A stretch of DNA of 23,572 nt from a virus. Positions within the stretch are counted from its first letter, which is position 1; each line of letters opens with the position of its first letter. The stretch covers positions 1 to 23,572 of IMG/VR virus record IMGVR_UViG_3300021068_000105; one strand, written 5' to 3'. Both the position numbers and the translations under genes were made by a program. Below the pieces are notes generated by a model, which was not told the origin of the DNA, ran no database searches, and was given only the letters and a program-made list of their open reading frames with translations. Of this stretch, positions 2,409 through 18,535 are shown in pieces.

Positions 2409-3743
2409 ATGTCGATGATTCAAGACTGCGTTAAGCAAGTTAAACCAAAAACAGAAAATTATACCCCACCTATAGATAAAATACAGAATTTTTTTATAAC
2501 TGAAGGAAAGGGTGCGTCTACCTACTTTGAAGGTGTTATTGCCGCCTGTCATAATAATTCTAGAGTTAGTAAAAAAACTTTCGACACAAATATATTAAAA
2601 GATCAAACTGTTAAACAGTTTCTTAAAGCTGCTGATGCTGGTGGTAAACCATTTTTTGCAACTAATGGTAAAAATGATAAAGAAAAATTAGACGTATTAT
2701 ATAAGTTTGCTCAAGTATGTAAGAAAACTTTACCTGGCAACTCATCTGATGCTGGTGCTGGTCAATCTAAGATGTCTGTTTCTAAACCTTGGCAAGAAAT
2801 CACTGATAAAAAAATAGATACATCTAAAGCAGATATTGCGGTGGGTGGTAATAAAACTTCTGTAAAGGGCCCTTCTGCTCAATTAATGTCAGGTAAAAAA
2901 TTAGAGGCAAAAGCAACTATTTTGTCTGCTTTAGAGATTTCTGGTGAGTCGAGTAAATTAAAAGATGCTCTTATTTCTACAGTTGAAGGTTTTGTAGATG
3001 ATACTAGAACTATTGGTGCCGAAGTTACTTCTGGTCTATTAAAGAAAATGTCGCCAGAAGAAGCAAAAAAAACTGGAAATGAAAAAGCAAAAGAGATTGT
3101 AGATAATCAAGAAAAAATGAAAAGCCAGATAACTAAATTATTTGAGACTGCTTTTAGCAATTCAAAAGTGGGCAATGCTTTCGCAAAAGAAGCTATGACA
3201 GGATGGGAAAAATTTGGAGGAAAAGCTTTTCCAAATAAAGGAGCAGGGGATTCCAAAGGTGAAGCAACACATATGCTTATATGGGATTATAGGATGGATA
3301 GAATGAAATTCTTGAAAATAGATGACAAATTTATTGCTATGACTTCTAAAAAAATGAAAGTTAGACCAGATTTAAAGGCTAATTCTTATAATATTAAAGG
3401 TGTAAAGGCAGGGTATTCTTTCTATCAGGCACTAAGAGTGGGTGTTAATGTTGTGTTAGATAAAACTGGAGAATTAGAAGGTTCTGCTAAAGAAGAGATA
3501 GAACATAACAAAACTCTCTTGAGTGAAGGTTCTTTAACAGAAATTAGTTTTAAAAAGAAAGTTCAAGATGTTTTGAATTGGCTTAAAAATAAGATAATGG
3601 GATTATGGAAATGGTTAACAGAAAAAATTAGAGAAATCGTAGATGTCGTTATAGAAAAAGTTAAACAAGGGATGTATTATGCCTTACAAGCATTTCAATT
3701 AGATGTTAATGTAAATGTAAATACTACGGTAAAGCTGTTATGA
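2409..3743 (+). CDS. Conserved marine T4-like phage protein, possible nuclease-like core
   Basis: No firm assignment; 444 aa and lysine-rich. A segment at about 134-175 reads D-T-S-K-A-D-I-A-V-G-G-N-K-T-S-V-K and then S-A-Q-L-M-S-G. This recalls the D...(S/E)-x-K strand-turn of PD-(D/E)XK nucleases (D142, K153), with Ser where Glu is usual; this is a weak match. Residues 28-33 (FFITEG) and 371-374 (LSEG) fit the (L/I)-x-E-G protease pattern seen in neighbouring proteins. The C-terminus (about 380-425) is strongly amphipathic, with several Trp (NWLKNKIMGLWKWL), and could be membrane-active or a coiled segment. GGAG lies 7 bases before the ATG. The neighbours suggest a virion or injected protein. 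Confidence 0.55.
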   Translation: MSMIQDCVKQVKPKTENYTPPIDKIQNFFITEGKGASTYFEGVIAACHNNSRVSKKTFDTNILKDQTVKQFLKAADAGGKPFFATNGKNDKEKLDVLYKFAQVCKKTLPGNSSDAGAGQSKMSVSKPWQEITDKKIDTSKADIAVGGNKTSVKGPSAQLMSGKKLEAKATILSALEISGESSKLKDALISTVEGFVDDTRTIGAEVTSGLLKKMSPEEAKKTGNEKAKEIVDNQEKMKSQITKLFETAFSNSKVGNAFAKEAMTGWEKFGGKAFPNKGAGDSKGEATHMLIWDYRMDRMKFLKIDDKFIAMTSKKMKVRPDLKANSYNIKGVKAGYSFYQALRVGVNVVLDKTGELEGSAKEEIEHNKTLLSEGSLTEISFKKKVQDVLNWLKNKIMGLWKWLTEKIREIVDVVIEKVKQGMYYALQAFQLDVNVNVNTTVKLL

Positions 3744-4984
3744 TGAGGTTTAACGAAATATTACTAGAGGACAAGGGTGGAAAAAATCTACACCTTGAAC
3801 ATTTGGAAGACGAAATACTCAACTACGGTGTTGATGGAGGTCGAGCTGCATTAAACTTTCTGCGTTCCCTCAGAGACATGATGGCAGGAGCCAGTCGTAG
3901 TTCCGTAAATATGACTGTTAAGTGGGACGGAGCTCCTGCGATTTTTGCTGGTATCGATCCAGAAGATGGTAAATTTTTTGTTGCGAAGAAGAGTGTTTTT
4001 AACGTCAATCCAAAGTTATACAAAACAACCAAGGAGATTGACGATGACCTCTCTGGCGCACTTAATTCAAAATTTAAAGTCGCATTGCAAGAGTTTTCTA
4101 AGTTGGGCATTAAAGGAGTCCTGCAAGGTGATCTCATGTATACGGACGATGTCGAGACTACAAAGATCGAGAATATTACATACTATACTTTCCAGCCTAA
4201 TACTATTGTTTATGCTATACCTGTGGATAGTAAGTTAGGAAGTATCATAAAGAAGTCTAATATAGGTATCGTATGGCATACTACGTATACAGGTGACGCA
4301 TTACAGGATATGAAAGCATCTTTTGGTGTAAACATATCAGGACTGAAAACACCTAGTAGTGTATGGATGGATGATGCTACATACAAAGATACAACAGGCA
4401 CGTCTACTTTTACAGAAAAAGAAACACAGAGGGTTACTAAAATACTATCACAAGTTGGGGTGACTTTTCAGAAGATTAATGCGAATGGTTTAAGAAAGTT
4501 TCTCACAGTACAAAATGGTATGACAGGTGCGATTGCTGGTGCATCTCTCAAAACCTATAATAACTCCAAGGTTCGTGCTGGTGAGAAGATTAAAAATCCC
4601 TCCAATCATGCAAAGGGTTATGAGAAGTGGGTATCTGATTCCATACAAAAACAAATAGACAAAGTAAAAAGTCCTGCTGGTAAGAAGAAATATGAAGATA
4701 TGCAGAAAGAGTATGTACGTGAGGTCAAGAAACATACAAGAAACCTAATTCAAATAATCACATTTCAAAATTTATTAGTTGAAGCAAAAATGCAAATAGT
4801 AAAAAAACTAAATAGTGTCAAGCAACTTACTGACACTTTCATTAAGACTGCTAATGGATTTAAGGTAACAAACCCAGAGGGATTTGTTGCTATTGATAGA
4901 GTAAGTGGTGGTGCTGTTAAACTAGTAGATCGTATGGAATTCTCATTTAACAACTTCACCGCAATAAAGGCATGGGACAAATGA
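3740..4984 (+). CDS. Ligase-like covalent nucleotidyltransferase (DUF6267-like)
   Basis: The protein shows the ordered motifs of ATP-dependent DNA/RNA ligases and capping enzymes. Motif I is K61-W-D-G64 (TVKWDGAPAIF), where Lys would take AMP. A motif III-like GVLQGDLMYT is at 126-135 and a hydrophobic YYTFQPNTIVYAI strand at 148-160. Motif IV is PEGFVAI (379-385; E380, G381) and motif V is AVKLVDRMEF (392-401; K394). I recall the family from marine T4-like phages as a protein of unknown function, probably DUF6267. A lysine-rich helical insert (about 270-350) separates motifs III and IV. The N-terminus MRFNEILLE-D (from the ATG at 3743) resembles the short leader shared with other genes here. 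Both ATGs (3740, 3743) overlap the previous stop. Enzyme activity is inferred. Confidence 0.65.
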   Translation: MMRFNEILLEDKGGKNLHLEHLEDEILNYGVDGGRAALNFLRSLRDMMAGASRSSVNMTVKWDGAPAIFAGIDPEDGKFFVAKKSVFNVNPKLYKTTKEIDDDLSGALNSKFKVALQEFSKLGIKGVLQGDLMYTDDVETTKIENITYYTFQPNTIVYAIPVDSKLGSIIKKSNIGIVWHTTYTGDALQDMKASFGVNISGLKTPSSVWMDDATYKDTTGTSTFTEKETQRVTKILSQVGVTFQKINANGLRKFLTVQNGMTGAIAGASLKTYNNSKVRAGEKIKNPSNHAKGYEKWVSDSIQKQIDKVKSPAGKKKYEDMQKEYVREVKKHTRNLIQIITFQNLLVEAKMQIVKKLNSVKQLTDTFIKTANGFKVTNPEGFVAIDRVSGGAVKLVDRMEFSFNNFTAIKAWDK

Positions 4985-5364
4985 CACAAAAATTTTCAGA
5001 TATTTACGAAAAATCTGTTCCCCTTCTTCAACGTAAGAGAATGGCACGTAGAATGAAAAAGATGGCAAGATCTGCCATTTTTAAAATGAAGAAGGCAAGA
5101 TCAGCACTCAGACGAAAAACTCCAGAAAAAATTCTTGCACTTGCACGTAAAAAGGCAATTAATATGATGAGGAAAAAGTTTTATCCTACGTATAAGGATA
5201 TGGCATTTGCTCAAAGAATTAAAATTGATCAGAGAATTATGGTTCAATTCGGCAAGAAAATAGATAAAATTTCCAAAAAATTGGCAATAGTAATAAAGAA
5301 AGGTGAAGGTGCTAGAATAGCAAAGGCAAAGGAAGCACAGAAGAAAGCAAGAGATAATGCGTAG
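4981..5364 (+). CDS. Small, highly basic protein, possible DNA-binding internal protein
   Basis: A 127-aa protein very rich in Lys and Arg and almost without acidic runs, predicted to be mostly helical. Clusters such as RKRMARRMKKMARSA and KMKKARSALRRK dominate the first half. No catalytic motif is visible. I chose the ATG at 4981 because it makes an ATGA overlap with the preceding stop; an in-frame ATG at 4972 would add three residues. The 3' end overlaps the next start by 8 bases, so it is coupled on both sides. The charge suggests nucleic-acid binding or a packaged internal protein that neutralises DNA, by analogy with T4 internal proteins. This is inference from composition and position only. 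Confidence 0.6.
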   Translation: MTQKFSDIYEKSVPLLQRKRMARRMKKMARSAIFKMKKARSALRRKTPEKILALARKKAINMMRKKFYPTYKDMAFAQRIKIDQRIMVQFGKKIDKISKKLAIVIKKGEGARIAKAKEAQKKARDNA

Positions 5365-6919
5365 TTTTAAGACTTTGACAGAAGCAACAGGTAATGCAGT
5401 TTTTACTTTAGGTAGATTCAACCCACCTACTACTGGTCATGAAAAACTTATAAACAAACTTTCCAGTAAGGCAGGACGAGATCCTATGTATGTGTTTCCT
5501 ACACATTCACAAGATCCTAAGAGAAATCCTTTGCCTCATTCTCTTAAAATTGCGTACATGAAGAAGATGTTCAGGAAATATGCCAAGAACATCCAAATCA
5601 GCAAGGCACGGAATGTATTTGAGGTTGCCAAGATTCTTTATGATAAAGGTCATAAATCAATTACTATGGTTGTTGGGTCTGACAGGGTTGCTGAGTTTAG
5701 CAGTCTTCTTAAAAAGTATAATGGAACAAAAAGCACTCATGGTTTCTACGAATTTGATAATATAGATGTTGTTTCTGCTGGAGCACGTGATCCTGACTCT
5801 GAAGGTGTAGAGGGCATGTCTGCATCCAAGATGAGAGCAGCGGCACAAGATGGAGACAAGGATTCTTTTATTCAAGGATTGCCTTCCAGTTTTAAGGAAG
5901 GAGAAAAATTATATAGAGATATTCGTTCAAATATGGGTGTTCGTGAAGAACGAAACATGGGGGATATGTCTGATTTTGAGTATCTCAGAGATCAATATCT
6001 CACAGGTAAAATCTGGAATGTGGGAGAACTAGTAGAAGCAAATGGTGTGAGTGGTGAAATTGTTCGTAGAGGAACAAACTACTTGACAATGGTGGAAGAA
6101 GATGGTAAGGTTCACAAGGTTTGGTTGCATGATATTACCCTTGATGAACGGAACTATCGTAAGGAATATGACAATTATCAAGGCAAACCAGAACAGGTTG
6201 CCAGACGTTCTTCAAGGAATAAAGCACGGAGGGTTATGGGTGACAAGACTAAGATAGGTATGGATGTAGGTCATAAGGACAATAATCCTATGAATAATGA
6301 CCCCAAGAATTTGAAAAATGAAAATCCATCCAAGAATCGAAGAGAACCAAGACTACGTGAAAAACTTGCCAAAACTGCCCCTGTAGATGATTATATAGAT
6401 GATTTTGAAAAGTCTGATGCCCCTCAGTTTAAAGGTAAATCCAAGGAAAAACGTAAAGATATGGCACTTGGTGCATACTATGCAAAGCAACGGGGAGAGA
6501 GTTTAGAAGAAATGTCATGGTGGAGATCAGTTATAGGTAAAATTCATACAGTATCCCACCCTAAAGGGTATGAAAGAATAACAAAGGAATATGCCGAATT
6601 ATTTAAACAGAAACAGTACAGAGATAATCCTCAAAAAGCAGCGTGGTATATAGCAAGAGTAAACAAAGGAGTGGATGTAAAAGTTTTCATCAAATATATT
6701 AATAAATTAGTTGATAAAGGCCAGTTGCCAACAGAGTTGAAAGCAGAATATGATCCGATGGAAGAAAAAATGTCTCCTTTAGCAAAATTACAGAAGTTTG
6801 ATAAATCACGGGTTGCGGCTGGTAAAAAACCAATTTTTACGGATAAAAAAACTAAGAAGAACAAAAAAGAAGCAGTATCATCCTTTAAGGACTTTGTAAA
6901 TAGTATTAACAATAAATAG
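5357..6919 (+). CDS. Fusion: nucleotidyltransferase domain plus HNH-like region, with capsid-targeting-like leader
   Basis: Three parts are visible. Residues 1-10 (MRSFKTLTE-A) form a leader ending in L-T-E-A. Residues 12-190 are an adenylyl/cytidylyltransferase (HIGH-type) domain: GRFNPPTTGH (19-28, the (H/T)xGH nucleotide loop), VVGSDR (105-110) and MSASKMR (154-160, the ISxSxxR-like signature). Its nearest well-known relatives are NadM/CoaD-type enzymes, which join NMN or phosphopantetheine to AMP. Residues 286-330 look like an HNH nuclease core, with H306 in DVGHKDNNPMNND followed by KNLKNENPSKN. Beyond 355 is a Lys-rich tail with GKSKEKRKDMALGAYYAK, a motif I recall from marine T4-like phage proteins. 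It overlaps the upstream gene by 8 bases. Domain calls come from motifs; the joint role is unknown. Confidence 0.72.
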   Translation: MRSFKTLTEATGNAVFTLGRFNPPTTGHEKLINKLSSKAGRDPMYVFPTHSQDPKRNPLPHSLKIAYMKKMFRKYAKNIQISKARNVFEVAKILYDKGHKSITMVVGSDRVAEFSSLLKKYNGTKSTHGFYEFDNIDVVSAGARDPDSEGVEGMSASKMRAAAQDGDKDSFIQGLPSSFKEGEKLYRDIRSNMGVREERNMGDMSDFEYLRDQYLTGKIWNVGELVEANGVSGEIVRRGTNYLTMVEEDGKVHKVWLHDITLDERNYRKEYDNYQGKPEQVARRSSRNKARRVMGDKTKIGMDVGHKDNNPMNNDPKNLKNENPSKNRREPRLREKLAKTAPVDDYIDDFEKSDAPQFKGKSKEKRKDMALGAYYAKQRGESLEEMSWWRSVIGKIHTVSHPKGYERITKEYAELFKQKQYRDNPQKAAWYIARVNKGVDVKVFIKYINKLVDKGQLPTELKAEYDPMEEKMSPLAKLQKFDKSRVAAGKKPIFTDKKTKKNKKEAVSSFKDFVNSINNK

Positions 6920-6929
6920 AAGATAAAAA

Positions 6930-7538
6930 ATGGACCAAAGGTTAGTAAAACAATTAAAAGAAGCAATGCCGACAACTTATCATCCTCAGTATAATTGGGA
7001 TTTAAGTAAGGATGTTGCAGAAGATGATTTGGAGTTATTTAAACAAGCAATGACCAATTGCCCAGCTGGGCAAGATAATAACACTTATTTTAAAGTGATT
7101 TTTATTAAAAATAGAGATGCGATTCAGAAAATATATGACGAACTTTGGGTAGATTCAATAGGAGAAGATGCTACACAGACACAAGTTCTTGCTAATCTTT
7201 TAGTAGTTTTTGAAAATTGGGACAACGATAGTATCCTCCATCGTTGGAATGAACAAAAATACGAAGTAGATAGAGCAACAGCGGTAGGAATGTCGGTAGG
7301 ATATTTAGAATTATTATGTGCGTTATTGGGATATAAAACTGGGCAACTTAATTGTGCAGATAAGGACGTTCAACAAGAGATTAAAAAATCTCTTGGTTTA
7401 GACGATGCCCCTTTATTAATGATGGGAATTGGCCACGGAAATGAAAATGTATCACCGCATAGAAGTCACTTTGATAGGAAGATAAAACATTCTGTGCATA
7501 GAAGAACACCACCTATTTATACAAGGGTATGGGAGTAG
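6930..7538 (+). CDS. Nitroreductase-like flavoprotein with capsid-targeting-like leader
   Basis: A 202-aa protein whose second half follows the nitroreductase/FMN-dependent oxidoreductase pattern. A helix AVGMSVGYLELLCALLGYKTG (118-138) is followed by a short loop, KSLGLDDAPLLMMGIGHG (153-170) and a charged tail. The upstream part (TNCPAGQDNNTYFKVIFIKNRD, about 42-63) fits the 'P-x-x-x-N/Q' FMN-side strand of the family. The first 12 residues (MDQRLVKQLKE-A) again end in L-K-E-A. Nitroreductase-fold enzymes use FMN and NAD(P)H to reduce nitroaromatics, quinones or flavins; which applies here cannot be read. No strong ribosome site is seen, only an A/G-rich AGAAGAT. The fold assignment is by pattern and moderately sure. 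Confidence 0.6.
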   Translation: MDQRLVKQLKEAMPTTYHPQYNWDLSKDVAEDDLELFKQAMTNCPAGQDNNTYFKVIFIKNRDAIQKIYDELWVDSIGEDATQTQVLANLLVVFENWDNDSILHRWNEQKYEVDRATAVGMSVGYLELLCALLGYKTGQLNCADKDVQQEIKKSLGLDDAPLLMMGIGHGNENVSPHRSHFDRKIKHSVHRRTPPIYTRVWE

Positions 7539-7543
7539 AAAAA

Positions 7544-10500
7544 ATGACCGTTTATAGAAAAACAATGGCAGATGCCTATCGAGAAATATATTCTCTCAAT
7601 GAAGATAATATGGACTTGATGAGGAAAGCTGCGAAGGGTGCAATGCAAACCATTAAGTTCAAAGATGGTAAATTGAAAGTAGACTCCTTTACTGCATCTG
7701 GCATCATGGCAGTTTATGATAAGATTAACCCTAAAAATAAAGAATCTATGGAGAAGATGATTAACAGTGGTACAAAAGGACAAATATTAAAACTCCAATC
7801 CCTAGCAATGAAAGCTTCTGGTCGTAAAGAAGAAGTTGAAGTTGATGAAGCAAAGTCAGCAACTGGTTATGAGTTGTATCATAAGACTTTTTCTGGTGCA
7901 ATGCAACACGCATATGCCCATGCAAAAAAGAAATTTGGTATAACTGTTAATCCCAACGAGATCGATCAAAAGGTTGCATCTGGCCCAGCAAAACCATCAA
8001 AAGGTAAAACAAACAAATATGGATTAAAAGGTGATAAGGGTGGCATTCAAGTTCAAGTGTACAATACAGGAAAAAATTATGAACTGAATATGTACAAAGA
8101 AGAAGTTGTCAAAGAAGGTACTTGGCAATTGCCTCAAGGTAATCAAGCAATAAAAGGTCTTAAAAGACTTCTTACCAAACCTATTGAGTTAGGTAAAATG
8201 GCCAATAATGCAAAAAATAAAATTGATAAGTATCTTGGTGACGATGAGTTATTTGATGATCTGGAAGATGCCGCTGATAAAAATCCAAAAGGTGATGCAA
8301 GACCTATAATCAAGAAAGCAATGAAACGTCTGAATATCAGGGAAGATATATCCCCAGTAATGTCCATTTATCAAAATGCTATTTCTAAACTCGTAGAGAA
8401 AACCCGACAATTAAAAGATCCCAAAAAAGAGATGATGATTAAGAGCAAAGATAGTGGTGTCATGGTTATTGATAAAAAGGATTTCAAGAAATATGAAAAG
8501 AAGGGGTATTTTGCGGTAGAAGAAACTGAGGTTGACGAACATAAAGGTAAGAAAAAACATAAACACCCACACATAATGACAAAGGATGGAGAACTTGCAA
8601 CAGTAGATGAAAAATTCGATAGGAAAAAGTTTGATGACAATGAAGACAAAAATTTCCATACTGAAAATGGTGTAGCACTTGTCAATATGTTTGGTGATGC
8701 TTATGAAAAGAGACAAATTGCTCAGATCAAAAAGGATCACGATAAAAGAGGGTCTATCACTTCAAAAGATCAGAAGGTGAGGGATGCTCTTGTCAAGAAG
8801 TATCTTCCTAAACTTAAAGAAGAAGTTGAACTTGATGAAAGTGTTATAGAACAACTAAAATCTCTTGCTAAAGGAGGTTCAAGATATAAACCTAAATCTG
8901 GAGCAGTTGAAATAAAAGATGACAAAGGTAAAGTAATTAATAAACTTACTCCAGAAGGAGCAAAAAAAGTTTTGGATAAGATGAAAGACCCTATTTCTGG
9001 TAAATCTTCTGTGCCTGATCGTACAAGAGGTGGTGCAGAAAAGAAAATAATTGATATAGTTAAGAATTTCAAAGAAGAAGTTGACCTTGATGAAGCCAAG
9101 GGTGTTGTTCAACCTACCAAAGATGGCAAAGGTGTGTTCAAGGTTTTGCCAAGAGACACTAAAGGCATGTCTGGTAAGCAAGACGCCTTCTCTATGGGAG
9201 TGTATGACAAGTCTGGAAAGAAGTTAATCAAAGATTGGGGTTCTCATCCTTCATTGGAAGGTGCAAAGAAATTTGCTAGAAACCACGGCATCATTGAAGA
9301 TGTTGCAGAAGATTTTATTGTAACATGGAAGAAAAAGGAAGTTGCAAGGCATAAGACCGAGCAGGGTGCTAGAAAATTATGGCACAACTTAATAGATAAT
9401 CCGAAAAAATACGGTATCAAACAAGATAAAATTCGTCTTTCTCAAGTTGGAACTACCTTGAAAGTTGCCCAGGAAGGAGTTGACCTTGATGAAGGACCAA
9501 ACAAAATGACTCAACCTGTCATTGTTATGAGACACAAGGATAATAAAAACTTGAGTGTTAGTGTTCTCCCTAGTGCAAAGAATATTAAAGAAAAAGAAAA
9601 AAAAGGTATGAGAATTGATCACGCACTTGTTCCTTCCCCAAGTGGCAATGCAAGAGAAGTCAAAGACCCTAAAGAGATCATGAAATTAATTAAGGGTGGA
9701 GATAAACTGAAGATTGGTGAAGAAGTTGAAATTGTTGAAGGCAAAATGAAAGAACTTCATATGTATATTCAACAAGGAAAAAAACCTGAGTGGATTGCAA
9801 AGACAATGGGTCTAGATGTTAAGACTGTTAAGTCATTGATGTCCGAAGAGACTATGTTGGAAAAAGTAAATAGATTTTTAGAGTCTGCTCGTTCTGATGC
9901 AATGAGGGCAATGAGGAAGTCTGGAGAGTTCAAGGACAAGGATGATGACGATGTAACGGCATCAGATGATGATGTTAAAGCAGCGTCCAAGAATATTATT
10001 GCTCAGATGAGAAAGGTCGTTTCTTTACGAGGAAATTTTAAGGTAGAATTTCAGGACGGTAAGAAAGAGAAAATTGATCCAAAAATTGCTCAATCAATAC
10101 AACAAAAATATAACTCAATGCGTAAACCAGCAGATAAGGAAAAGTTTCAGGCAAAAATTGCAAAATCTAAAAGGGATTTGTTGAATGCATTGAAAGAGAG
10201 TTTCGGAGAGGCAAAGGACGATCAAGCACCAGATCAGGCAAAGAAAGTTCAAGCCAAGCAAGAAAAAGAGAAAGAAAAAGAAACAAAACAAAAGCAAACA
10301 GATGCCATAAAAGATAGACAAACTTCTGTAGCAGATGCTCAAAAAGCAAAGCAAGAAGCAGAAAGAGAGAAGGCATCTAATGAACGTGAAAAAGCAAAAC
10401 AGAAAGCAAATGTTGATGTAGCACAAGCAAGCAAGAAAAAAGAAATGGATACAGCAAAGGCCAGTGATAAAGCAACTAGTGATACACAAAAAGCAGCTGA

Positions 10501-10666
10501 CCAAAAAGAAAAAGAAGCAGAAAAACGTGCCGCTGATACCGAAAGAAAATCAGAAAAGGCAAAGAAAGCATCTAAATCAAAAGAAGTTGCAGGGCAATTA
10601 TCTGCATCTTATAACCCCATCTTATCTAGGATAGATGAAAAAATACAGGAGAGAAAAAATGGGTAA
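7544..10666 (+). CDS. ~1040-aa modular virion-type protein with repeated EEVxLDE motifs
   Basis: Probably a structural or internal virion polyprotein. It is a chain of short Lys/Asp/Glu-rich modules separated by variants of E-E-V-(E/D)-L-D-E-(A/S/G); five to seven copies lie between 7829 and 9742. The LDE-A/S/G and IVE-G forms match the (L/I)-x-E cleavage rule of T4-type prohead protease. One module (about 9745-9840) has a helix-turn-helix-like run, GKKPEWIAKTMGLDVKTVKSLM. The last ~150 residues are a Lys/Glu/Ala coiled coil ending SRIDEKIQERKNG. Start 7544 is preferred over 7529 because GGGAG lies 8 bases upstream. The N-terminus has S-L-N-E-D at residues 17-21. No enzyme motif is seen. Confidence 0.72.
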   Translation: MTVYRKTMADAYREIYSLNEDNMDLMRKAAKGAMQTIKFKDGKLKVDSFTASGIMAVYDKINPKNKESMEKMINSGTKGQILKLQSLAMKASGRKEEVEVDEAKSATGYELYHKTFSGAMQHAYAHAKKKFGITVNPNEIDQKVASGPAKPSKGKTNKYGLKGDKGGIQVQVYNTGKNYELNMYKEEVVKEGTWQLPQGNQAIKGLKRLLTKPIELGKMANNAKNKIDKYLGDDELFDDLEDAADKNPKGDARPIIKKAMKRLNIREDISPVMSIYQNAISKLVEKTRQLKDPKKEMMIKSKDSGVMVIDKKDFKKYEKKGYFAVEETEVDEHKGKKKHKHPHIMTKDGELATVDEKFDRKKFDDNEDKNFHTENGVALVNMFGDAYEKRQIAQIKKDHDKRGSITSKDQKVRDALVKKYLPKLKEEVELDESVIEQLKSLAKGGSRYKPKSGAVEIKDDKGKVINKLTPEGAKKVLDKMKDPISGKSSVPDRTRGGAEKKIIDIVKNFKEEVDLDEAKGVVQPTKDGKGVFKVLPRDTKGMSGKQDAFSMGVYDKSGKKLIKDWGSHPSLEGAKKFARNHGIIEDVAEDFIVTWKKKEVARHKTEQGARKLWHNLIDNPKKYGIKQDKIRLSQVGTTLKVAQEGVDLDEGPNKMTQPVIVMRHKDNKNLSVSVLPSAKNIKEKEKKGMRIDHALVPSPSGNAREVKDPKEIMKLIKGGDKLKIGEEVEIVEGKMKELHMYIQQGKKPEWIAKTMGLDVKTVKSLMSEETMLEKVNRFLESARSDAMRAMRKSGEFKDKDDDDVTASDDDVKAASKNIIAQMRKVVSLRGNFKVEFQDGKKEKIDPKIAQSIQQKYNSMRKPADKEKFQAKIAKSKRDLLNALKESFGEAKDDQAPDQAKKVQAKQEKEKEKETKQKQTDAIKDRQTSVADAQKAKQEAEREKASNEREKAKQKANVDVAQASKKKEMDTAKASDKATSDTQKAADQKEKEAEKRAADTERKSEKAKKASKSKEVAGQLSASYNPILSRIDEKIQERKNG
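7829..9742 (+). repeat. Dispersed in-frame repeats encoding EEVxLDE-type motifs
   Basis: Near-identical 24-base units of the form GAAGAAGTTGA-c/a-sTTGATGAA-r begin at 7829 (EEVEVDEA), 8819 (EEVELDES), 9074 (EEVDLDEA) and 9719 (EEVEIVEG). A shorter form is at 9473 (EGVDLDEG), and weaker versions are at 8099 (EEVVKEG) and 8519 (EETEVDEH). All are in the reading frame, at irregular spacing (about 250-400 bases), so they are linkers between modules and not a tandem array. The conserved core is at protein level, with third-base changes between copies. Four copies (8819, 9074, 9473, 9719) fit the L/I-x-E followed by a small residue rule of T4 prohead protease. Confidence 0.75.
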
Positions 10667-11252
10667 ATACATGAAAACGAAGAAAGGCAGTATTGAATCC
10701 TCCATTCTAGAAGTATGGAAAAACGCTGCTGAGAAGACGGAAGCAGAGAAACTTCATATGCAGTCTTTTGAAATTGGTACTGACAGGTATACAGAATATA
10801 CCAAGAATCTAACTCCAGGTCAAGAAGTGACGCAAAAGTTAGATGAAAAGGGTCTACCACCTTGGTTAGACAAGGATAAAAAGGGTGATGACAAGGATGA
10901 TGAAAAGTCCACTAAAAAAGAAGGTATGCCACCTTGGTTGAAGGGAAAAGGCAAGAAGAATGGTGATGATGACGAGAAAAAGGAAGCATTGTCTCCCAAG
11001 CAAAAGAAACTGGATGTTGACAAAGACGGAGATATCGAGGCTGACGATCTTGCTGATTTGAGGAATAAGAAGAAGAAATCAGAATCTAATCGTGCCAGAG
11101 AAACTTGGAAAGAAGCAATCAAAAAGGTTGCTGAATATTCGAAAGACAAGCAAGAAGATGATGAAGTCAAGGGTAAGAAAACCATGACAGGTGGTAAAAA
11201 AGCAAAAGTAGATGTCAATCCTGATATAGAAGAAAAAGCAAAGAAAAAATAA
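10659..11252 (+). CDS. EF-hand-containing acidic/basic phage protein
   Basis: A 197-aa charged protein. It contains one textbook EF-hand calcium loop, D119-V-D121-K-D123-G-D125-I-E-A-D-D130 (D at 1, 3 and 5, Gly at 6, Ile at 8, Asp at 12), preceded by SPKQKK. Two copies of a PPWL element (GLPPWLDK at 65-72, GMPPWLKG at 89-96) sit in disordered Lys/Asp/Gly sequence. Similar proteins are widespread in marine T4-like phages, but I know no function. Start 10659 has AGGAGAG at 10647-10653, 5 bases upstream, better than the in-frame ATG at 10635 that lies deeper in the preceding gene. The overlap with the preceding stop is 8 bases. Ca2+ binding is predicted from the loop only. Confidence 0.7.
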   Translation: MGKYMKTKKGSIESSILEVWKNAAEKTEAEKLHMQSFEIGTDRYTEYTKNLTPGQEVTQKLDEKGLPPWLDKDKKGDDKDDEKSTKKEGMPPWLKGKGKKNGDDDEKKEALSPKQKKLDVDKDGDIEADDLADLRNKKKKSESNRARETWKEAIKKVAEYSKDKQEDDEVKGKKTMTGGKKAKVDVNPDIEEKAKKK

Positions 11253-11255
11253 ATT

Positions 11256-11774
11256 ATGAAAAGTTTAGTTGAACTTTCTGAGGCATCCGAAGAGGAATTG
11301 CCTGACATTTATTGTGATTTGGATGAAGTACTCGTTGATTTTTTGAGGGGTGCTAAAGAAGTTGTTGGTTCTGATTTTGCAAGTATGCCGTCTAAAGAAA
11401 GGTGGAATATTCTAAACAACCATAAAGGTTTCTGGCAAAATTTGGATTGGAAACCTAATGCTAAACGACTGTATGATTTTATCTCGAAGTATGATCCTCA
11501 TGTATTGTCTGCTTACACGAAACGTGATCCGTCATCCAAGAAAGGTAAAATGAGGTGGTTGAAGAAACATGCAAAATTTAAGAGGGCAAACATACACTTG
11601 GTCTTGAGAACGCAAAAGAAAGACTACGCAAAGAATAAAAATGGCAGTTCCAATATCTTGATCGATGACTATGAAAAGAATATCAGAGAATGGGAAAGTG
11701 CTGGAGGTATAGGTATACATCATACAAATGTAGGAAAATCTATAAGTGAATTAAAGAGACTAGGGTTTAAATAG
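11256..11774 (+). CDS. HAD-family 5'(3')-deoxyribonucleotidase-like protein with leader
   Basis: Putative phosphatase acting on (deoxy)nucleoside monophosphates. HAD motif I is D21-L-D23-E-V (IYCDLDEVLVDF), with D21 as nucleophile and D23 as acid/base. Motif II is S85 in HVLSAYTKRD, and the motif III/IV region is KNGSSNILIDDYEKNI (128-143) with D137/D138 for Mg2+. Overall this follows the NT5C-type family, and 172 aa is normal for it. The first ten residues MKSLVELSE-A form an extra N-terminal leader ending L-S-E-A, then a short acidic spacer before the domain. It starts 4 bases after the upstream stop with no clear ribosome site. It is the last gene before the late promoter at 11775. Substrate is inferred. 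Confidence 0.75.
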   Translation: MKSLVELSEASEEELPDIYCDLDEVLVDFLRGAKEVVGSDFASMPSKERWNILNNHKGFWQNLDWKPNAKRLYDFISKYDPHVLSAYTKRDPSSKKGKMRWLKKHAKFKRANIHLVLRTQKKDYAKNKNGSSNILIDDYEKNIREWESAGGIGIHHTNVGKSISELKRLGFK

Positions 11775-11782
11775 TATAAATA
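11775..11782 (+). promoter_or_regulatory. T4-type late promoter box TATAAATA
   Basis: An exact match to the T4 late promoter -10 element (read by gp55-containing RNA polymerase) lies one base after the stop of the nucleotidase-like gene. It is 35 bases before the ATG at 11817, which has AAGGAG at 11804-11809. Transcription would start near 11787-11789 and give a ~30-base leader. The downstream gene looks like a late virion protein, as expected. Confidence 0.7.
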
Positions 11783-12851: not shown

Positions 12852-12859
12852 TATAAATA
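12852..12859 (+). promoter_or_regulatory. T4-type late promoter box TATAAATA
   Basis: A second exact TATAAATA lies 4 bases after the Ig-like gene's stop and 30 bases before the ATG at 12890. Between them is GAGGTGA (12879-12885) as ribosome site. Being intergenic and at the same distance from a start as the box at 11775, it is likely a working late promoter for 12890 onward. Confidence 0.7.
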
Positions 12860-13096: not shown

Positions 13097-13149
13097 TATC
13101 TACAGTAACATTCCCATAATATTGTGGGTTAATATAAGGAGATGCCATA

Positions 13150-13632: not shown

Positions 13633-13646
13633 TATCGTTAGTTGGG

Positions 13647-13666
13647 GGAGAGGGGAAACCCTCTCC
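13647..13666 (+). terminator. Strong GAAA-loop hairpin after virion gene
   Basis: GGAGAGGG (13647-13654), loop GAAA (13655-13658) and CCCTCTCC (13659-13666) form a perfect 8-bp stem closed by a GNRA tetraloop, 14 bases after the stop at 13632. No T-run follows (next bases TACCTCTATATTAG), so it may be an RNA-stability element or a weak terminator. The right arm CTCTCC (13661-13666) can also pair with GGAGAG (13680-13685), which contains the ribosome site of the next gene. Confidence 0.6.
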
Positions 13667-13689
13667 TACCTCTATATTAGGAGAGTAGT

Positions 13690-13899
13690 ATGGCAAGAAA
13701 TGACGGAATAAGATATGGTGCTGGTGGTGCTGGAATGATACAAGAGATACAAGAGATTTCTCCTGTAAATCCTGATCCTAGTCCAAGACAACCATTAGCA
13801 AGTCGAGGAAGACCTAAAAAGAAAGAAGAAGCTCAAATGTTGGAAGAAACTGTACGTAACAGTTTGCCTTCTGATTCAGAGCCAATGGAAGAAGAATAA
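13690..13899 (+). CDS. Small protein with AT-hook-like RGRPKKK motif
   Basis: A 69-aa, low-complexity protein. The N-terminal part is Gly-rich (GIRYGAGGAG) and the middle is Pro-rich. Residues 39-45 are RGRPKKK, the core of an AT-hook DNA-minor-groove binder. The end is acidic. AGGAG (13679-13683) precedes the ATG by 6 bases and can be masked by the upstream hairpin arm. The stop overlaps the next start (TAATG). Similar short proteins occur in marine T4-like phages. DNA binding is a suggestion from one motif only. Confidence 0.65.
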   Translation: MARNDGIRYGAGGAGMIQEIQEISPVNPDPSPRQPLASRGRPKKKEEAQMLEETVRNSLPSDSEPMEEE

Positions 13900-14324
13900 T
13901 GAAAAGTTTTAAATCACATATCAAAGAAATGGTCGGTACTTCTCATCAAGACATGGCAGTGGATAAAAACACCAATCCTATTGCATTTCAGAATCCTGAA
14001 GTGCTTAGAAAATTGAATGCTTGGGTTGGAAGCATTGCTGGTAGTTATATTTTACCAGAAGATGCAATCCATGTGTTAAGAAGTTCACTTATGAAAGTAG
14101 GATTAACTTTTGATGAAGTTCCTATGATGAGTGAAGATAAGGGTTCTTATTCAATGCCCTTAACCCTATTTGGTGGTAGATTTGGCAAATTGCCTAATAC
14201 ACCCATAGATGAATTTCATGCAGATGATGGTATCTCGCATATGATAGAAGGTGGTCTTACATTAGTTATAGGTTATGAAAAAAATGAGGATAACTCTTGT
14301 AGTTTAAGTGCCAACATTAACTAA
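13899..14324 (+). CDS. Conserved phage protein with capsid-targeting-like leader
   Basis: A 141-aa protein of unknown function. The N-terminus MKSFKSHIKE-M strongly resembles the T4 internal-protein leader (M-K-x-aromatic-...-I-x-E at position 10), although the residue after E is M and not A. The rest (ILPEDAIHVLRSSLMKVGLTF, MPLTLFGGRFGKLPNTPIDEF) is a compact alpha/beta-looking domain with no catalytic motif that I recognise. It is joined to the neighbours on both sides by TAATG overlaps. By context and leader it may be a packaged protein. Confidence 0.6.
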   Translation: MKSFKSHIKEMVGTSHQDMAVDKNTNPIAFQNPEVLRKLNAWVGSIAGSYILPEDAIHVLRSSLMKVGLTFDEVPMMSEDKGSYSMPLTLFGGRFGKLPNTPIDEFHADDGISHMIEGGLTLVIGYEKNEDNSCSLSANIN

Positions 14325-14686: not shown

Positions 14687-15294
14687 TGGGAAGAGCTATA
14701 GATTTATTCGTAACATACAGATTTATAAAATTGCTTGTCACTCCTTTCGAGAAGACTGAAGCATTTAAACTTGGAATAATTGACAAAGATGGTCGCAGAT
14801 CTGTAAAACCAGGAACAAATGTACCAACAACATTAGGCACTTCTAAAGAACAAGATGCCTATACCATCCTACATAAACTAATATTTAATATCAAAAAGAT
14901 TTTTGGTAAGGTGCCAGGTTTGAGAACCAAATTGGGATCTTATGCCGCTGCTTTATTTCTGCTCAAAGACACATTTAAGGAGCATGTAGATGACCCCGAT
15001 ATGTTTGAGAAGGAATTTATGAAATATTTGAAGGAACAGGGTCACGAAATCGATGATAGTATTTCAGAGGAAGTTATTGGATTTGGTGAGGTTTTGCCTA
15101 AAGGAGAGTATGTTCTGGTCAACGATATCCTAAATAAAGAAGAAGAAGAATTGAGTGCAAAGAAAGGTGACAAGGTTGTTGCTTATGATGATGAGTCAGC
15201 AATAGATACTATATTAGGGGTAGATATTTTCCCTGTAATACATATGAAATCACAGCAGAAAATTTATGTAGGTCTGGAGGATTTAAAGAAATGA
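14686..15294 (+). CDS. Conserved T4-like phage protein, possible virion component
   Basis: A 202-aa protein. The N-terminal run RAIDLFVTYRFIKLLVTPFEKTEAFKLGIID is, in my recollection, conserved in T4-like marine phages next to structural genes. A central helical part (ILHKLIFNIKKIFGKVPGLR, SYAAALFLLKDTFKEHV) is followed by an acidic linker (NKEEEELSAKKG) and a small beta part. No catalytic residues stand out. The start overlaps the previous stop as TAATG and the end overlaps the next start as ATGA. A virion or assembly role is inferred from conservation and context. Confidence 0.6.
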   Translation: MGRAIDLFVTYRFIKLLVTPFEKTEAFKLGIIDKDGRRSVKPGTNVPTTLGTSKEQDAYTILHKLIFNIKKIFGKVPGLRTKLGSYAAALFLLKDTFKEHVDDPDMFEKEFMKYLKEQGHEIDDSISEEVIGFGEVLPKGEYVLVNDILNKEEEELSAKKGDKVVAYDDESAIDTILGVDIFPVIHMKSQQKIYVGLEDLKK

Positions 15295-15647
15295 CAAAGT
15301 TAAAGAAATGGAAAGAAGTGTCTCCCTACACAGGAGCTCCAGTTAAAGAAGATGCCCCAGTAAATATGGCAAGTGGTGGTGGGATAGATATGAACCCTAA
15401 TGGCATGAAGAAGAAAAAAGAATTAGATGCTCGAACTAAGTCATATAAAACACATCGTTCTAAATTAGAAGCAAACAGGTTAGCACGAATTGCACGTGCA
15501 GAGAATAGACGTAAGTACGGATTCGTTGAGACTATTAAAAATAAAATTAAAGAATATGCTCCTGCTGGTTTAGGCAAAACACAACCTGTAGCAGACATGA
15601 GATCTGATGTGCCGAAGAAAATAAAAAAGAATGCCAAAGATAAATGA
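15291..15647 (+). CDS. Small basic conserved phage protein
   Basis: A 118-aa Lys/Arg-rich, probably disordered protein. It starts KKWKEVSPYTGAPVKEDAPVN. It has a basic helix (KTHRSKLEANRLARIARAE) and the tail KKIKKNAKDK. It resembles small basic proteins found beside the preceding gene in marine T4-like phages. It is coupled by ATGA to the upstream gene, and its 3' end overlaps the following hydroxylase-like gene by 17 bases. Nothing in the sequence indicates an enzyme. Confidence 0.6.
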   Translation: MTKLKKWKEVSPYTGAPVKEDAPVNMASGGGIDMNPNGMKKKKELDARTKSYKTHRSKLEANRLARIARAENRRKYGFVETIKNKIKEYAPAGLGKTQPVADMRSDVPKKIKKNAKDK

Positions 15648-16224
15648 ATATTTTGATGAAGACAAATTTCGGAACACCTCTCTCTTTGATCGAAAGAACC
15701 ATTTTCAAATAACTGCTGAAAAATATTGGCATGATATAAATGACTGCTGGGAACTGATAGAAAACTGTAAAGAACACTTAGAGATATTAGAAGAGTGTAG
15801 AAGGTTTACAGATTGGAAGATATATTCTTTGTCAGAAGTAGCACCAAAACGATTAGCAAAATTTGGTGATAAAGGATTTCCTGGTCGTTGGATTGCCTTT
15901 CCTACTCACGAAACTTTCCCTACATTTATGAACTGGTATGAACGAAAAAAGAATCGTTACCATGATCCTGAGATTCGTAAATTAGATGCAGGGGCAATTA
16001 TACTTCCCCACACACATGACCGAGAAATAGAGTCTAAATACTTATATAACATGTCTATAAACCACCCAGAAGGATGTTTATTTGGAATAAAACCTGGAGG
16101 CAAAGTACCATATAAAGCAGGGGATGTTATGAAGATAAATGTATGGAACGAGCATTGCGTATGGAACAACTCAAAGGAAGATCGATATCATGCGATTTTA
16201 GGTGTAATAGATGATACTAAGTGA
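15631..16224 (+). CDS. Aspartyl/asparaginyl beta-hydroxylase-like 2OG oxygenase
   Basis: A 197-aa putative Fe/2-oxoglutarate hydroxylase of the Asp/Asn hydroxylase type. The first metal-site cluster is P126-H127-T-H129-D130 (GAIILPHTHD). A MSINHPEGCLFGIKPGGKVPY stretch follows, and the distal site is NEHCVWNNSKEDRYH with H175 and the 2OG-binding R185. The 'H-x-V-x-N-x-S-x-x-x-R' ending is characteristic of that family. Whether H127 or H129/D130 holds the metal cannot be told by eye. The helical N-terminal 60 residues have no clear motif. The start overlaps the previous gene by 17 bases with only a weak A/G-rich site. The end overlaps another 2OG-like gene. The target could be a protein side chain; this is unproven. 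Confidence 0.7.
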   Translation: MPKINEYFDEDKFRNTSLFDRKNHFQITAEKYWHDINDCWELIENCKEHLEILEECRRFTDWKIYSLSEVAPKRLAKFGDKGFPGRWIAFPTHETFPTFMNWYERKKNRYHDPEIRKLDAGAIILPHTHDREIESKYLYNMSINHPEGCLFGIKPGGKVPYKAGDVMKINVWNEHCVWNNSKEDRYHAILGVIDDTK

Positions 16225-16888
16225 TGAAGAGATTACCGAATTACAAACTATTTGGGATGAAAATTTAACTACTGATGGTCAAGATTTTGTTAAAATATAT
16301 AATCGTAAAGAATATTACAAAAAGTTAAAGAATGGGGAGATAAAGAAATTTAATGAAGATTGTGAAACTGGACATATGTTATTGGCAGTTAAATGTGATC
16401 CTTTAGGGGAATGGTATAGAAATAAATTCGATATTGACGGTCCTTTGGGTGGCCAGTTGGCATTTTTAAAAGAACCATTAGGTGTTCATGTGGATGTATT
16501 GCATAATGTGCCAGATCATTTTTCTCAAAAACTACATACTACAACAAGGTATGCAGTGTTAAAAACAGATTGTACTGATACGTTACATACCTATATTTTT
16601 GATCAATATGCTGATCGAACAAAATGGAGTGGATTTAAAACTGTAAATGAAACAGTAACTGGATTGACAGATACACCAATTGAAGGACATGAAGGATTAG
16701 ACCATTTAATAGATAAAGCATCGTCATTAGGATTAACGGTTAAAGAGAAAATACCATTGCCTATAGGAAAGGTAGTATCTTGGGGAAGTCATTATTTGCA
16801 TAGTGGACAAAGTTTTGTCAGTGCTGGAGGAAGTTGGAAATTTCAAATAACAATACTTACTCCAACGAGGGAGATAAAATATGCTTAA
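16211..16888 (+). CDS. 2OG-Fe(II) oxygenase-like protein, second of right pair
   Basis: A 225-aa protein with a double-stranded beta-helix signature. The first metal site is H93-V-D95 (PLGVHVDVLHNV), and the strands TTRYAVLKTD and TLHTYIFDQY follow. The motif PLPIGKVVSWGSHYLHSGQSF holds the distal H194 or H197. K210 (GSWKFQITIL) takes the place of the usual Arg for 2OG, an uncommon but known substitution. It overlaps the upstream hydroxylase by 14 bases and the downstream spanin-like gene by 8 bases. It is unlike the other three oxygenase-like proteins outside the motifs. Substrate unknown; the superfamily call is by motif order. Confidence 0.6.
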   Translation: MILSDEEITELQTIWDENLTTDGQDFVKIYNRKEYYKKLKNGEIKKFNEDCETGHMLLAVKCDPLGEWYRNKFDIDGPLGGQLAFLKEPLGVHVDVLHNVPDHFSQKLHTTTRYAVLKTDCTDTLHTYIFDQYADRTKWSGFKTVNETVTGLTDTPIEGHEGLDHLIDKASSLGLTVKEKIPLPIGKVVSWGSHYLHSGQSFVSAGGSWKFQITILTPTREIKYA

Positions 16889-17270
16889 AGTTTATATGTT
16901 ATTGCTTGTTTTGGGTCTAATTGGTGGTGTAGGTTATGGTGCCTATTACTACTATAAGGACACTCAAGCACGTATTGCCACCCTTACAGAGAATAGTGCC
17001 AAATTGGAAGTCGCCGCACAGACACAGAAACAGACTATAGATACTCTTGTAGCAGATGCAAAGAAGTATGAGAAACTAAATAGTGAACTACATACTAGTC
17101 TGGATAAAGCAAACGACTATAAGAACACGTTGCTTGGTAAATTGAGAAAACACAACCTTACTAAATTGAGTTCCCAAAAGCCTGCTATTATGGAGAGGAA
17201 GATAAACAATGCAAGCAAAAGATTATTGGAAAGTTTCGAGTCTCTTACTGCTGTCCCTATTAGTAAGTAG
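16881..17270 (+). CDS. i-spanin-like inner-membrane coiled-coil protein (Rz-like)
   Basis: A 129-aa protein with one N-terminal transmembrane helix (residues 4-25, MLLLVLGLIGGVGYGAYYYY). A long periplasm-facing coiled coil follows (about 30-90, ATLTENSAKLEVAAQTQKQT and on), and a basic conserved tail (KLRKHNLTKLSSQKPAIMER). This is the plan of phage i-spanins, which with an outer-membrane lipoprotein partner fuse the two membranes at the end of lysis. The downstream lipoprotein gene starts inside it and shares 62 bases in another frame, a classic Rz/Rz1-type overlap. GGGAG stands 6 bases before the ATG. The architecture is clear; sequence homology to a named spanin is not shown. Confidence 0.7.
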   Translation: MLKVYMLLLVLGLIGGVGYGAYYYYKDTQARIATLTENSAKLEVAAQTQKQTIDTLVADAKKYEKLNSELHTSLDKANDYKNTLLGKLRKHNLTKLSSQKPAIMERKINNASKRLLESFESLTAVPISK

Positions 17271-17601
17271 TTGCTCTACTTGGAACCCGTTAAAAACGAT
17301 TGAGGTCAAGACTGTAGAAGTTGAGAGGAATGTACCTCTACAGAACAGACCACGGCAATTAGATTTAGCAAACATACATTGGTATGTGGTGACAGAAGAG
17401 AATTTTGCAGAGTTTAAGAAGAGGTTTCAAAAAGAGAATGGTGATCCTTTAGTTGCTTATGTTATTAGTGTAAAGGATTATGAAACACTTGCCGTAGACA
17501 TGGCAGAAATTAAGAGGTATATCGATCAACAAAAACAGATTATTATATACTATGAGAAAGCATTGAGTCCGAAAAAGGTAGAGACAAAGGATAAAAAGTA
17601 A
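17209..17601 (+). CDS. o-spanin-like outer-membrane lipoprotein (Rz1-like)
   Basis: A 130-aa protein with a lipoprotein signal peptide: a basic start, a Leu-rich core (SSLLLLSLLVSSC) and lipobox V-S-S-C22. The mature part would begin CSTWNPLKTIEVKTVEVE and contains a mixed alpha/beta region ending in a helix (MAEIKRYIDQQKQIIIYYEK). It begins 62 bases before the end of the i-spanin-like gene, with AGGAAG upstream. o-spanins are usually shorter and Pro-rich, so this is a large version; it is instead close to a conserved lipoprotein of marine T4-like phages. The next gene starts within its stop (TAATG). Confidence 0.68.
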   Translation: MQAKDYWKVSSLLLLSLLVSSCSTWNPLKTIEVKTVEVERNVPLQNRPRQLDLANIHWYVVTEENFAEFKKRFQKENGDPLVAYVISVKDYETLAVDMAEIKRYIDQQKQIIIYYEKALSPKKVETKDKK

Positions 17602-18086
17602 TGGGAGAATTTAACGGAAAAATTGTTGCTGAATTTACTCCACCTAAGACTTGGGAATTGGAGAAAGGGTTGTCATTTAAAACAGATGATTTAACAGACG
17701 CAGAAATTTCTACACTTAAACAAATAGGTGCTAATATAGCAGAATCGGGGAGAATTTCTTGTAAAAAAGGAATGAAAACTGATCTTGCTTCTGTGCCACG
17801 TATTGTATGGAATATCATTGCTCCTTGGGATATAGCAAGAGCAGCGGTTATCCATGATCACTTGTATGCATCGTTACGTAGTTTTTATAATACAAGTTTT
17901 GGAGAAATTGGTCCAAAAACTAAATCTGTACATAAAGAAACGTGGAGCAAAGGAAGAGCAATCGCAGACAAGGTTTTGCTTTTAGGAATGGATGCTTCTG
18001 AACCTTCTATACCAGCATGGAAGAAATATCCAGCGTATTGGTCTGTTAGAATGTTTGGTTGGGGTCCAGCATCAAAGGAAAAATGA
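17601..18086 (+). CDS. DUF1353 family protein
   Basis: A 161-aa protein with the DUF1353 signature. KTDLASVP (59-66) is followed by an aromatic region (PRIVWNIIAPW), then RAAVIHDHLYAS (80-91, H85, D86, H87) and GRAIADKVLLLGM (118-130, D123). The conserved Asp/His set suggests a metal-dependent hydrolase, and phages often carry this gene in lysis or tail modules. Its activity is not established as far as I know. Here it directly follows the spanin-like pair (TAATG). A murein-degrading or lysis-linked role is possible because no classical endolysin is visible in this window. The C-terminus ends PAYWSVRMFGWGPASKEK. The family call is confident, the role is not. Confidence 0.82.
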   Translation: MGEFNGKIVAEFTPPKTWELEKGLSFKTDDLTDAEISTLKQIGANIAESGRISCKKGMKTDLASVPRIVWNIIAPWDIARAAVIHDHLYASLRSFYNTSFGEIGPKTKSVHKETWSKGRAIADKVLLLGMDASEPSIPAWKKYPAYWSVRMFGWGPASKEK

Positions 18087-18535
18087 TGAAAACCTTTAAG
18101 CAACATCTTAAAGAAGCATCTATGTGGAACTATATCTACAAAAAGAATAAAGGTATATTCTATAGAGGTGTGGGTAGAGGAGGACAAGGTACTGGTCTGG
18201 GCGTTTTAGGTCAGGGAATTTATCTTACATGGACTGAAGGTATGGCCTCTGCATTTGCAAAACGACAGGGTGCTGGTGGTGTGGTAAAGAAATATAAACT
18301 CAAATCCAACCTTAAAATAGTTGATGCTGGTGGTATGACTGATGGGGATAAAGATTGGATAGATGTTAAAGCAGTTATGGGATTTGCTCCACAACAACAT
18401 GCAGGGAATGATAAAATGTTTGCGGCCATGTTGTCAATGATGTTGGAGGAAAAAGGATATCATGGTGCAGTCAGTGACGATGTAGCAACTGGCATAGTAA
18501 TCTTTAAAAAGAAAAATGTCAAGGAAATTAAATAA
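18086..18535 (+). CDS. ADP-ribosyltransferase-like protein with T4-type capsid-targeting leader
   Basis: A 149-aa protein. Residues 1-11, MKTFKQHLKE-A, are nearly the T4 internal protein III leader (MKTYQEFIAE-A), with L8-x-E10 then Ala. The rest resembles compact ADP-ribosyltransferase (ART) domains of the polyvalent-protein type. GIFYRGVG has R27 on the first strand. VLGQGIYLTWTEGMASAFAK (40-59) has Y45 in the GxGIYxT turn plus the A..FA helix. KKYKLKSNLKIVDA follows, and the end is GYHGAVSDD then GIVIFKKKNVKEI. A clear catalytic Glu is not obvious. ARTs transfer ADP-ribose from NAD+ to proteins; T4 Alt is such an enzyme injected with the DNA. I chose ATG 18086; an ATG at 18083 overlaps the upstream stop. 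Confidence 0.66.
   Translation: MKTFKQHLKEASMWNYIYKKNKGIFYRGVGRGGQGTGLGVLGQGIYLTWTEGMASAFAKRQGAGGVVKKYKLKSNLKIVDAGGMTDGDKDWIDVKAVMGFAPQQHAGNDKMFAAMLSMMLEEKGYHGAVSDDVATGIVIFKKKNVKEIK

Follow-up and report, generated by a model that had tools for sequence, protein, structure and literature searches.

Short shared leaders probably mark a clustered set of enzyme-like proteins for packaging in T4-like marine phages

Why should a set of unrelated enzyme-like proteins, encoded side by side amid the replication genes of a phage, begin with the same kind of short N-terminal peptide? The question is raised by IMG/VR virus record IMGVR_UViG_3300021068_000105, a 23.6-kb virus fragment (23,572 nucleotides; hereafter the window) from a T4-like marine myovirus, which spans from a gp41-type helicase gene (5-1303) to the genes for a gp61-type primase (20195) and a ribonucleotide reductase (21186). 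Its gene order is the same as in Methylophilales phage Melnitz, Pelagibacter phage HTVC008M and the cyanophages Syn9 and S-SM1, all of the Kyanoviridae. A first-pass annotation of the window had listed six proteins with leaders ending in (L/I)xE, all encoded inside the gp41-gp61 block, and had proposed that they are packaged and injected with the DNA. We consider it probable, at about 0.83, that these leaders serve as T4-type capsid-targeting sequences (CTS), by which the proteins would be loaded into the prohead, cut by the gp21 protease and delivered. The direct basis for this is the identity and conservation of the leaders, their match to the cleavage site of the major capsid protein (MCP), the late promoters and the presence of leader-bearing orthologues in virions; by analogy with T4, we infer docking, cleavage at the leader sites, injection and the enzymatic roles.

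The genes and promoters described here lie on the + strand, and proteins are named by the first nucleotide of their gene. Re-reading of the window showed the letters and coordinates of the six quoted N-termini to be exact, and relatives back five of them. These belong to the DUF6267 protein (3743..4984; leader MRFNEILLE-D, nt 3743-3769; Pfam PF19782, 1e-104; the start used is the second Met, at 3743), a protein with an NMNAT/cytidylyltransferase-like domain and a weak HNH-like region (5357..6919; MRSFKTLTE-A, nt 5357-5383), a HAD 5'(3')-deoxyribonucleotidase-like protein (11256..11774; MKSLVELSE-A, nt 11256-11282; phrog_2643, 1.4e-27), a 141-residue protein of unknown fold (13899..14324; MKSFKSHIKE-M, nt 13899-13928, in the register of T4 IPIII) and a 149-residue protein resembling the NAD+-using ADP-ribosyltransferase (ART) superfamily (18086..18535; MKTFKQHLKE-A, nt 18086-18115; PF18760 at 1.3e-3, below the cut-off). 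Together with a very basic 127-residue protein (4981..5364; MTQKFSDIYE-K, nt 4981-5010; isoelectric point of the mature part 11.7), they form the group for which a leader is supported. The cargo set as first listed is real but incomplete, with 4981, 2409, 7544 and probably 10659 overlooked; in the last three a leader is probable. The helicase, the primase, the reductase, the 2-oxoglutarate (2OG) oxygenase-like proteins and small membrane proteins have none, as had been remarked from the outset for the first four of these.

Conservation among relatives follows the features that matter in T4. Most relatives of the NMNAT-like, basic 4981, 13899 and DUF6267 proteins have F at residue 3 or 4, L/I at P3 and E at P1. 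In the NMNAT family E9 is present in 33 of 43 unique N-termini and F4 is near-invariant, all 12 unique relatives of 13899 combine F at residue 3/4 with a site, and both relatives of 18086 retain the leader (MKTLKQLYE-A and MKQFKTLYE-E), this protein having no match in the isolate-phage collection. The HAD family keeps the leader in 13 of 19 relatives, with residue 4 mostly L and the Glu lost in some. This pattern agrees with mutagenesis of T4 IPIII, in which targeting depends on leader residues 4 and 7 and processing on residues 8 and 10 (PMC9026906); MKTFKQHLKE and MKSFKSHIKE stand in that register.

The leaders also show signs of being detachable. Across 23 relatives of the DUF6267 protein, leader length and sequence vary, the last Glu is invariant (23/23) and a conserved mature start, DKGGKNLHLEH, follows. 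The 444-residue basic protein at 2409..3743 carries an extended leader (residues 1-32, nt 2409-2504; MSMIQDCVKQVKPKTENYTPPIDKIQNFFITE-G, ending NFFITE-G) of a family with 26-33 residues, whose members share M..[V/L]RQ[L/V]RPRTENYxPxVDKVQ-x-x-L-x-E; its orthologues in Melnitz (MQGFKTFLSE-A) and HTVC008M (MLSFTGYSNLSE-A) carry the short form. In three contigs (L064, L065 and L083) the 2409-type leader (M..RQ[LV]RPRTENYxPxVDKVQS[FI]LSE) precedes a mature part in which no similarity to that of others, such as L033, can be detected; on sequence comparison this appears to be a natural leader swap like those among the T4 internal proteins (IPs). The three have a 31-residue leader, MSNLNHYVRQIRPRTENYIPHVDKVQSLFSE, fused to a 412-residue mature protein with no Pfam match. 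The leaders described here fit the general form of a CTS, a short N-terminal leader of 7-65 residues on proteins with unrelated mature parts.

If the prohead protease removes these leaders, their ends should look like its other substrates. Genes for the gp21 protease and the gp22 core protein are present in Melnitz, HTVC008M, S-SM1, S-CREM2 and others, the window being a fragment without the head module. The ends of the MCP propeptides, placed by alignment to T4 gp23 (GSFLTE|A), read SAFLSE|A in Melnitz, KAFLGE|I in HTVC008M, GQILTE|T in S-SM1, GTGLLTE|A in S-CREM2, RGILTE|A in S-SZBM1 and SGSFLAE|A in S-SCSM1, and leaders of the same genomes end in TFLSE|A (Melnitz), AFLNE|A (S-SM1), SFLTE|A (S-CREM2) and QFLKE|A (S-SCSM1). 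In the six relatives, the leader end thus resembles the predicted prohead-protease site in the phage's own MCP. A MKNFSSFLTEADEK-type peptide would represent the uncut form with the leader intact.

How specific is such a short signal? The bare (L/I)xE rule at residues 9-11, on which the first-pass annotation relied, is barely so: it is matched by 5/23 cluster genes and 15/198 others in Melnitz (p=0.04) and by 2/22 and 14/176 in HTVC008M (p=0.55), and we rejected it as a genome-wide detector. What lies clearly above chance is the full leader shape, M, a basic or small residue, x, F/Y/L, ..., L/I/V-x-E. We built leader profiles from homologue N-termini of more than 80 viral contigs, leaving one family out each time, and compared them with 78 control N-termini, taken from control families encoded in the gp41-gp61 block and its flanks; a version built only from the NMNAT leaders proved too narrow and was set aside. 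Held-out recognition of unique N-termini reached 63% for DUF6267, 97% for the basic 4981 family, 82% for NMNAT, 50% for HAD, 75% for 13899 and 2/2 for the ART-like family, and 4-8% of the control N-termini passed the threshold. In Melnitz, a genome-wide scan picked 8 of 23 block genes and 6 of 198 elsewhere (p=8e-6); this enrichment, like that in HTVC008M, is not fully independent because the training families include orthologues of some block genes. T4 provided the positive control: of 73 coding sequences, the marine-only profile ranked IPIII and IPII at the top. Leaders on replication proteins, which would have spoken against packaging, did not exceed background in whole-genome scans of Melnitz, HTVC008M and S-CREM2.

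The proposal that these proteins are packaged finds its strongest support for the NMNAT-like protein, whose orthologues have been detected in four virion proteomes and bear a leader in each; for the HAD, 13899 and ART-like proteins we found no virion data. Virions of S-SM1 contain the orthologue T4-GC190 (PMC3037559), which according to a GenBank note is SSM1_190 and begins MKKFSAFLNE-A, those of S-SCSM1 contain one with MKSFLQFLKE-A (PMC9602691), and those of S-SZBM1 one with MRFRQFIIE-A (PMC9146016). The fourth phage, S-CREM2, with a virion proteome of 52 proteins (PMC10665884), was kept out of profile training and serves as an independent test. Of the detected proteins, 13 are encoded outside the head and tail modules, and 4 of these reached a profile score of at least 8, compared with 1/167 among undetected proteins and 0/39 among detected proteins of structural type (p=8e-5). 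The four are gp6, a SAM hydrolase (MKDFDSFLEE-F), gp13 (MKDLHSFLTE-Q), the kinase gp14 (MKRFDAFLTE-E) and the NMNAT gp154 (MKNFSSFLTE-A). A fifth virion-detected protein, the Cas9-like gp12, qualifies by motif, with LRFASFMAE-A preceded by a short extension; it has no Pfam domain, so its Cas9 label is provisional. None of the window proteins corresponds to the hydrolase, kinase or Cas9-like families. Within gp12-gp15 (L103:7704-13331), two neighbouring late operons encode the APH-like kinase gp14 and the Cas9-like gp12, with their FLTE and FMAE leaders. The NMNAT of S-PM2 follows DUF6267 in a fusion protein, has no leader and was not detected in the virion by a study that missed other virion proteins too (PMC3037559); the gene, S-PM2p142 (L101:8599-9771), naturally joins the C-terminal half of DUF6267 to the NMNAT-like enzyme and so both functions.

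Expression signals point the same way. The T4-type late-promoter motif [AC]TAAATA[GA], sought 15-60 nt upstream of genes, precedes 18 genes of Melnitz and 11 of HTVC008M (1.4 expected in each), many of them head or tail genes. In the window, a putative late promoter at 2382..2389, 27 nt before 2409, heads the cargo block; an ATAAATA late-promoter-like site (6912..6918) stands before 6930, and late promoters of sequence TATAAATA stand before 11817 (11776..11782) and 12890 (12853..12859). The cargo block is headed by a late promoter in eight genomes (the window, Melnitz, HTVC008M, Syn9, S-SM1, S-SCSM1, S-SZBM1 and S-CREM2), and in S-CREM2 all four cargo operons are; ahead of gp41 or gp61 none was found where checked. 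The block therefore appears as a late, virion-type unit amid replication genes.

Taken as a pathway, the proteins of the gp41-gp61 block would be made late, via the T4-type promoters, and the leader, through its aromatic residue 4, P3 hydrophobic residue and P1 Glu, would dock each protein on the prohead core. The gp21 protease would cut after the Glu, as in the MCP propeptide (..FLSE|A), and the freed enzyme would remain in the head alongside the DNA. If they behave like T4 Alt and the IPs, the mature NMNAT-like, ART-like, ligase-like DUF6267, deoxynucleotidase and very basic proteins may then enter the host together with the genome and act ahead of any phage gene expression. As leader-bearing proteins are found in the virions of relatives, these phages very probably bring a set of ready-made enzymes along when their DNA enters the cell.

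Several observations weigh against this reading. The virion-detected S-CREM2 proteins gp160, gp165, gp174 and gp176 carry no leader, and the authors of two proteome papers leave open whether such proteins are cargo or co-purified contaminants (S-SCSM1, PMC9602691; S-CREM2). The Glu or the whole leader is missing in some homologues, among them the HTVC008M NMNAT (MKTLKELLRK), several HAD proteins and the cyanophage DUF6267 proteins. The held-out profile recognised 0% of the 7544 family (leader MTxYxKTMxE), and the enrichment in HTVC008M is modest (4/22 block genes, 7/176 others; p=0.02). The marine profile also misses T4 IPI, with its 19-residue leader, and Alt, so that its sensitivity is limited and its calls are incomplete and not wholly specific.

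Could the likeness be due to chance? On this view, short, AT-rich, Lys/Phe-rich starts ending in Glu would be common in these genomes and favoured by gene-finding; the bare motif matches 7-8% of unrelated Melnitz and HTVC008M proteins, and shuffled N-termini yield about three profile matches per genome at the same threshold. The observed matches, however, number 14 in Melnitz and 11 in HTVC008M against 3.4 and 2.8 in the shuffles and cluster in one gene block; the P1 Glu of DUF6267 persists through changes in leader length, and in S-CREM2 it is the proteome-positive enzymes that are tagged and the undetected ones that are not, which together make chance highly improbable. Co-purification of abundant late enzymes, the leader then serving some other purpose late in infection, for instance targeting to a membrane or a complex, was raised by the cyanophage proteome authors themselves and would suit the low NMNAT counts (2-3 peptides in S-SZBM1 and S-CREM2; PMC9146016, PMC10665884). 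It is nonetheless very unlikely given that NMNAT was detected independently in four phages, that leader ends match each phage's own predicted MCP cleavage site, and that the same leader shape is an experimentally established CTS in T4 (PMC9026906).

A further alternative retains the head and drops the delivery: the leader could be a core-binding tag for head assembly, the proteins scaffold or structural components and their enzyme-like folds relics. Seven S-SCSM1 genes from the gp41-gp61 block (89-93, 95, 97) bear a virion-protein annotation, and six of these (89, 90, 92, 93, 95, 97) lack a recognised enzyme domain; the 7544 protein, moreover, resembles a core protein diced by protease. We consider this unlikely, as the catalytic motifs are conserved (GRFNPPTTGH and SASKMR in NMNAT, KWDG and EG in DUF6267) and the tagged S-CREM2 proteins annotated as kinase, SAM hydrolase and Cas9-like would make improbable scaffolds. 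Packaging of enzymes through T4-type CTS thus remains our preferred explanation.

The 7544 protein itself (7544..10666) has 1040 residues and begins MTVYRKTMADAYREIYSLNE-D, its relatives starting MTxYxKTMxE-A. It is built of modules that are joined by KEEVxLDE-like linkers and recur at other positions in relatives, and it contains seven EExx[LVI]xE-like sites with P1 Glu at residues 102, 191, 332, 432, 517, 650 and 732, against 0.001 expected in shuffles. These are candidate internal prohead-protease sites, and the protein may be a polyprotein that, like T4 gp22 or gp67, is cut into pieces inside the head. Its neighbour, a 197-residue protein (10659..11252), has a probable 18-residue leader, ..KKGSIESSILE, that the leader profile did not pick up; the Melnitz orthologue begins MSKYLETKKGSIESAVLE-A. 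The sixth leader of the first-pass annotation, MDQRLVKQLKE-A on the nitroreductase-like protein (6930..7538), is unproven because this protein has no relatives in viral contigs; its profile score is borderline (4.4), its assignment was made by inspection with no Pfam or PHROG match, and the N-terminal tag may be an ordinary helix 1.

Other candidate leaders were rejected: that of 15631 (MPKINEYFDE; profile score -2.2, no relatives), that of p12890 (MITKEVIE; pattern not kept in its family) and MKFDELNE of a 120-residue cyanophage family (Syn9 gp189), which is absent from aligned relatives and so belongs to the domain. MKKLISE of S-CREM2 gp156 scores but is probably the start of a nucleotidyltransferase helix. 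Four leaderless 2OG/oxygenase-like genes lie at the edge of and within the cargo block of the window (1291-2389 and 15631-16888). Zeta-toxin-like P-loop kinases occur in Melnitz outside the block (L011:32356-33024; MKTFAELQE-G) and in HTVC008M inside it (L010:19742-20404; MIPFILKE-G), and a RimK-like ATP-grasp protein of Melnitz (L003:82-1131), starting MTQKFSQFITE-E, is a candidate cargo enzyme outside the block.

What might the cargo do? The NMNAT-like domain of 5357 (PF01467, 5.8e-5) has both the (H/T)xGH and the SxxxxR motif, and GRFNPPTTGH and SASKMR are near-invariant in 19 sequences of the family. The DUF6267 protein, with KWDG, EGFV and AVKLV motifs and with KWDG, EG and K393 invariant among relatives, recalls polynucleotide ligases, which suggests a ligase-like nucleotidyltransferase; its AlphaFold2 (AF2) model is poor (pLDDT 52) because the alignment lacked diversity, and sequence searches of the PDB gave nothing useful for either protein. 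By sequence, 11256 is assigned to the 5'(3')-deoxyribonucleotidase family, and the basic 4981 protein is probably DNA-binding-like. For 18086 (AF2 model, pLDDT 63), fold comparison ranks ART/RES/PARP-type NAD+ enzymes highest, all with Z<8. The same fold search brings up a chain of the cyanophage A4 pre-ejectosome (9k3a_B), a model-based likeness which suggests that ART domains may occur in ejection proteins of another cyanophage type. An NAD-centred kit, with NMNAT supplying and ART and possibly other enzymes using, is attractive but unproven.

Compared with known systems, the leaders are closest to those of T4 IPI, IPII and IPIII, with about ten residues, an aromatic residue 4, a hydrophobic-x-Glu end, divergent mature parts and gp21 in related phages; T4 cargo, however, comprises small inhibitors and Alt, whereas here we see a clustered enzyme-like set between gp41 and gp61 and one family (2409) with a 26-33-residue leader. 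T4 Alt, a packaged and injected ADP-ribosyltransferase, is paralleled by the ART-like 18086 with its propeptide-like leader, although the latter has only 149 residues and a modelled fold that seems to resemble MbcT/RES, diphtheria-type and AcrIF11 ARTs. The head and ejection proteins of phiKZ and SPN3US likewise include large enzymes loaded in heads and processed at x-x-E sites, but their propeptides mostly exceed 100 residues and end in S/A-x-E rather than the short F/L/I-x-E form. The papers on cyanophage virion NMNAT (S-SM1, S-SCSM1, S-SZBM1, S-CREM2), the orthologues of 5357, name no packaging signal; the leader would provide it and points to additional cargo. In searchable papers we found no literature linking CTS to the Kyanoviridae.

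Altogether, the shared leaders are confirmed, and the T4 CTS system very probably extends to an enzyme-rich, modular cargo in this family. We tentatively speculate that the cyano-, pelagi- and methylophages of the Kyanoviridae may possess a dedicated modular cargo locus between gp41 and gp61, in which interchangeable CTS leaders, cargo enzymes and the multi-site polyprotein 7544 would be loaded together, cut in the prohead and delivered as an NAD/nucleotide kit that acts ahead of transcription (NMNAT making NAD+, ART using it, a nucleotidase and the ligase-like DUF6267), possibly to counter host defences that deplete NAD. The leader would be the missing packaging signal for enzymes repeatedly seen in cyanophage virions, so far either cargo or contaminant, and would allow further injected proteins to be predicted from sequence alone, including the nucleotidase, ART, DUF6267, kinases, SAM hydrolase, the Cas9-like protein, the zeta-like kinase and RimK. 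It may also serve as an addressable tag for loading proteins into phages of hard-to-culture hosts, and the time-zero deliveries of very abundant phages become testable with existing mass-spectrometry data and leader-reporter fusions.

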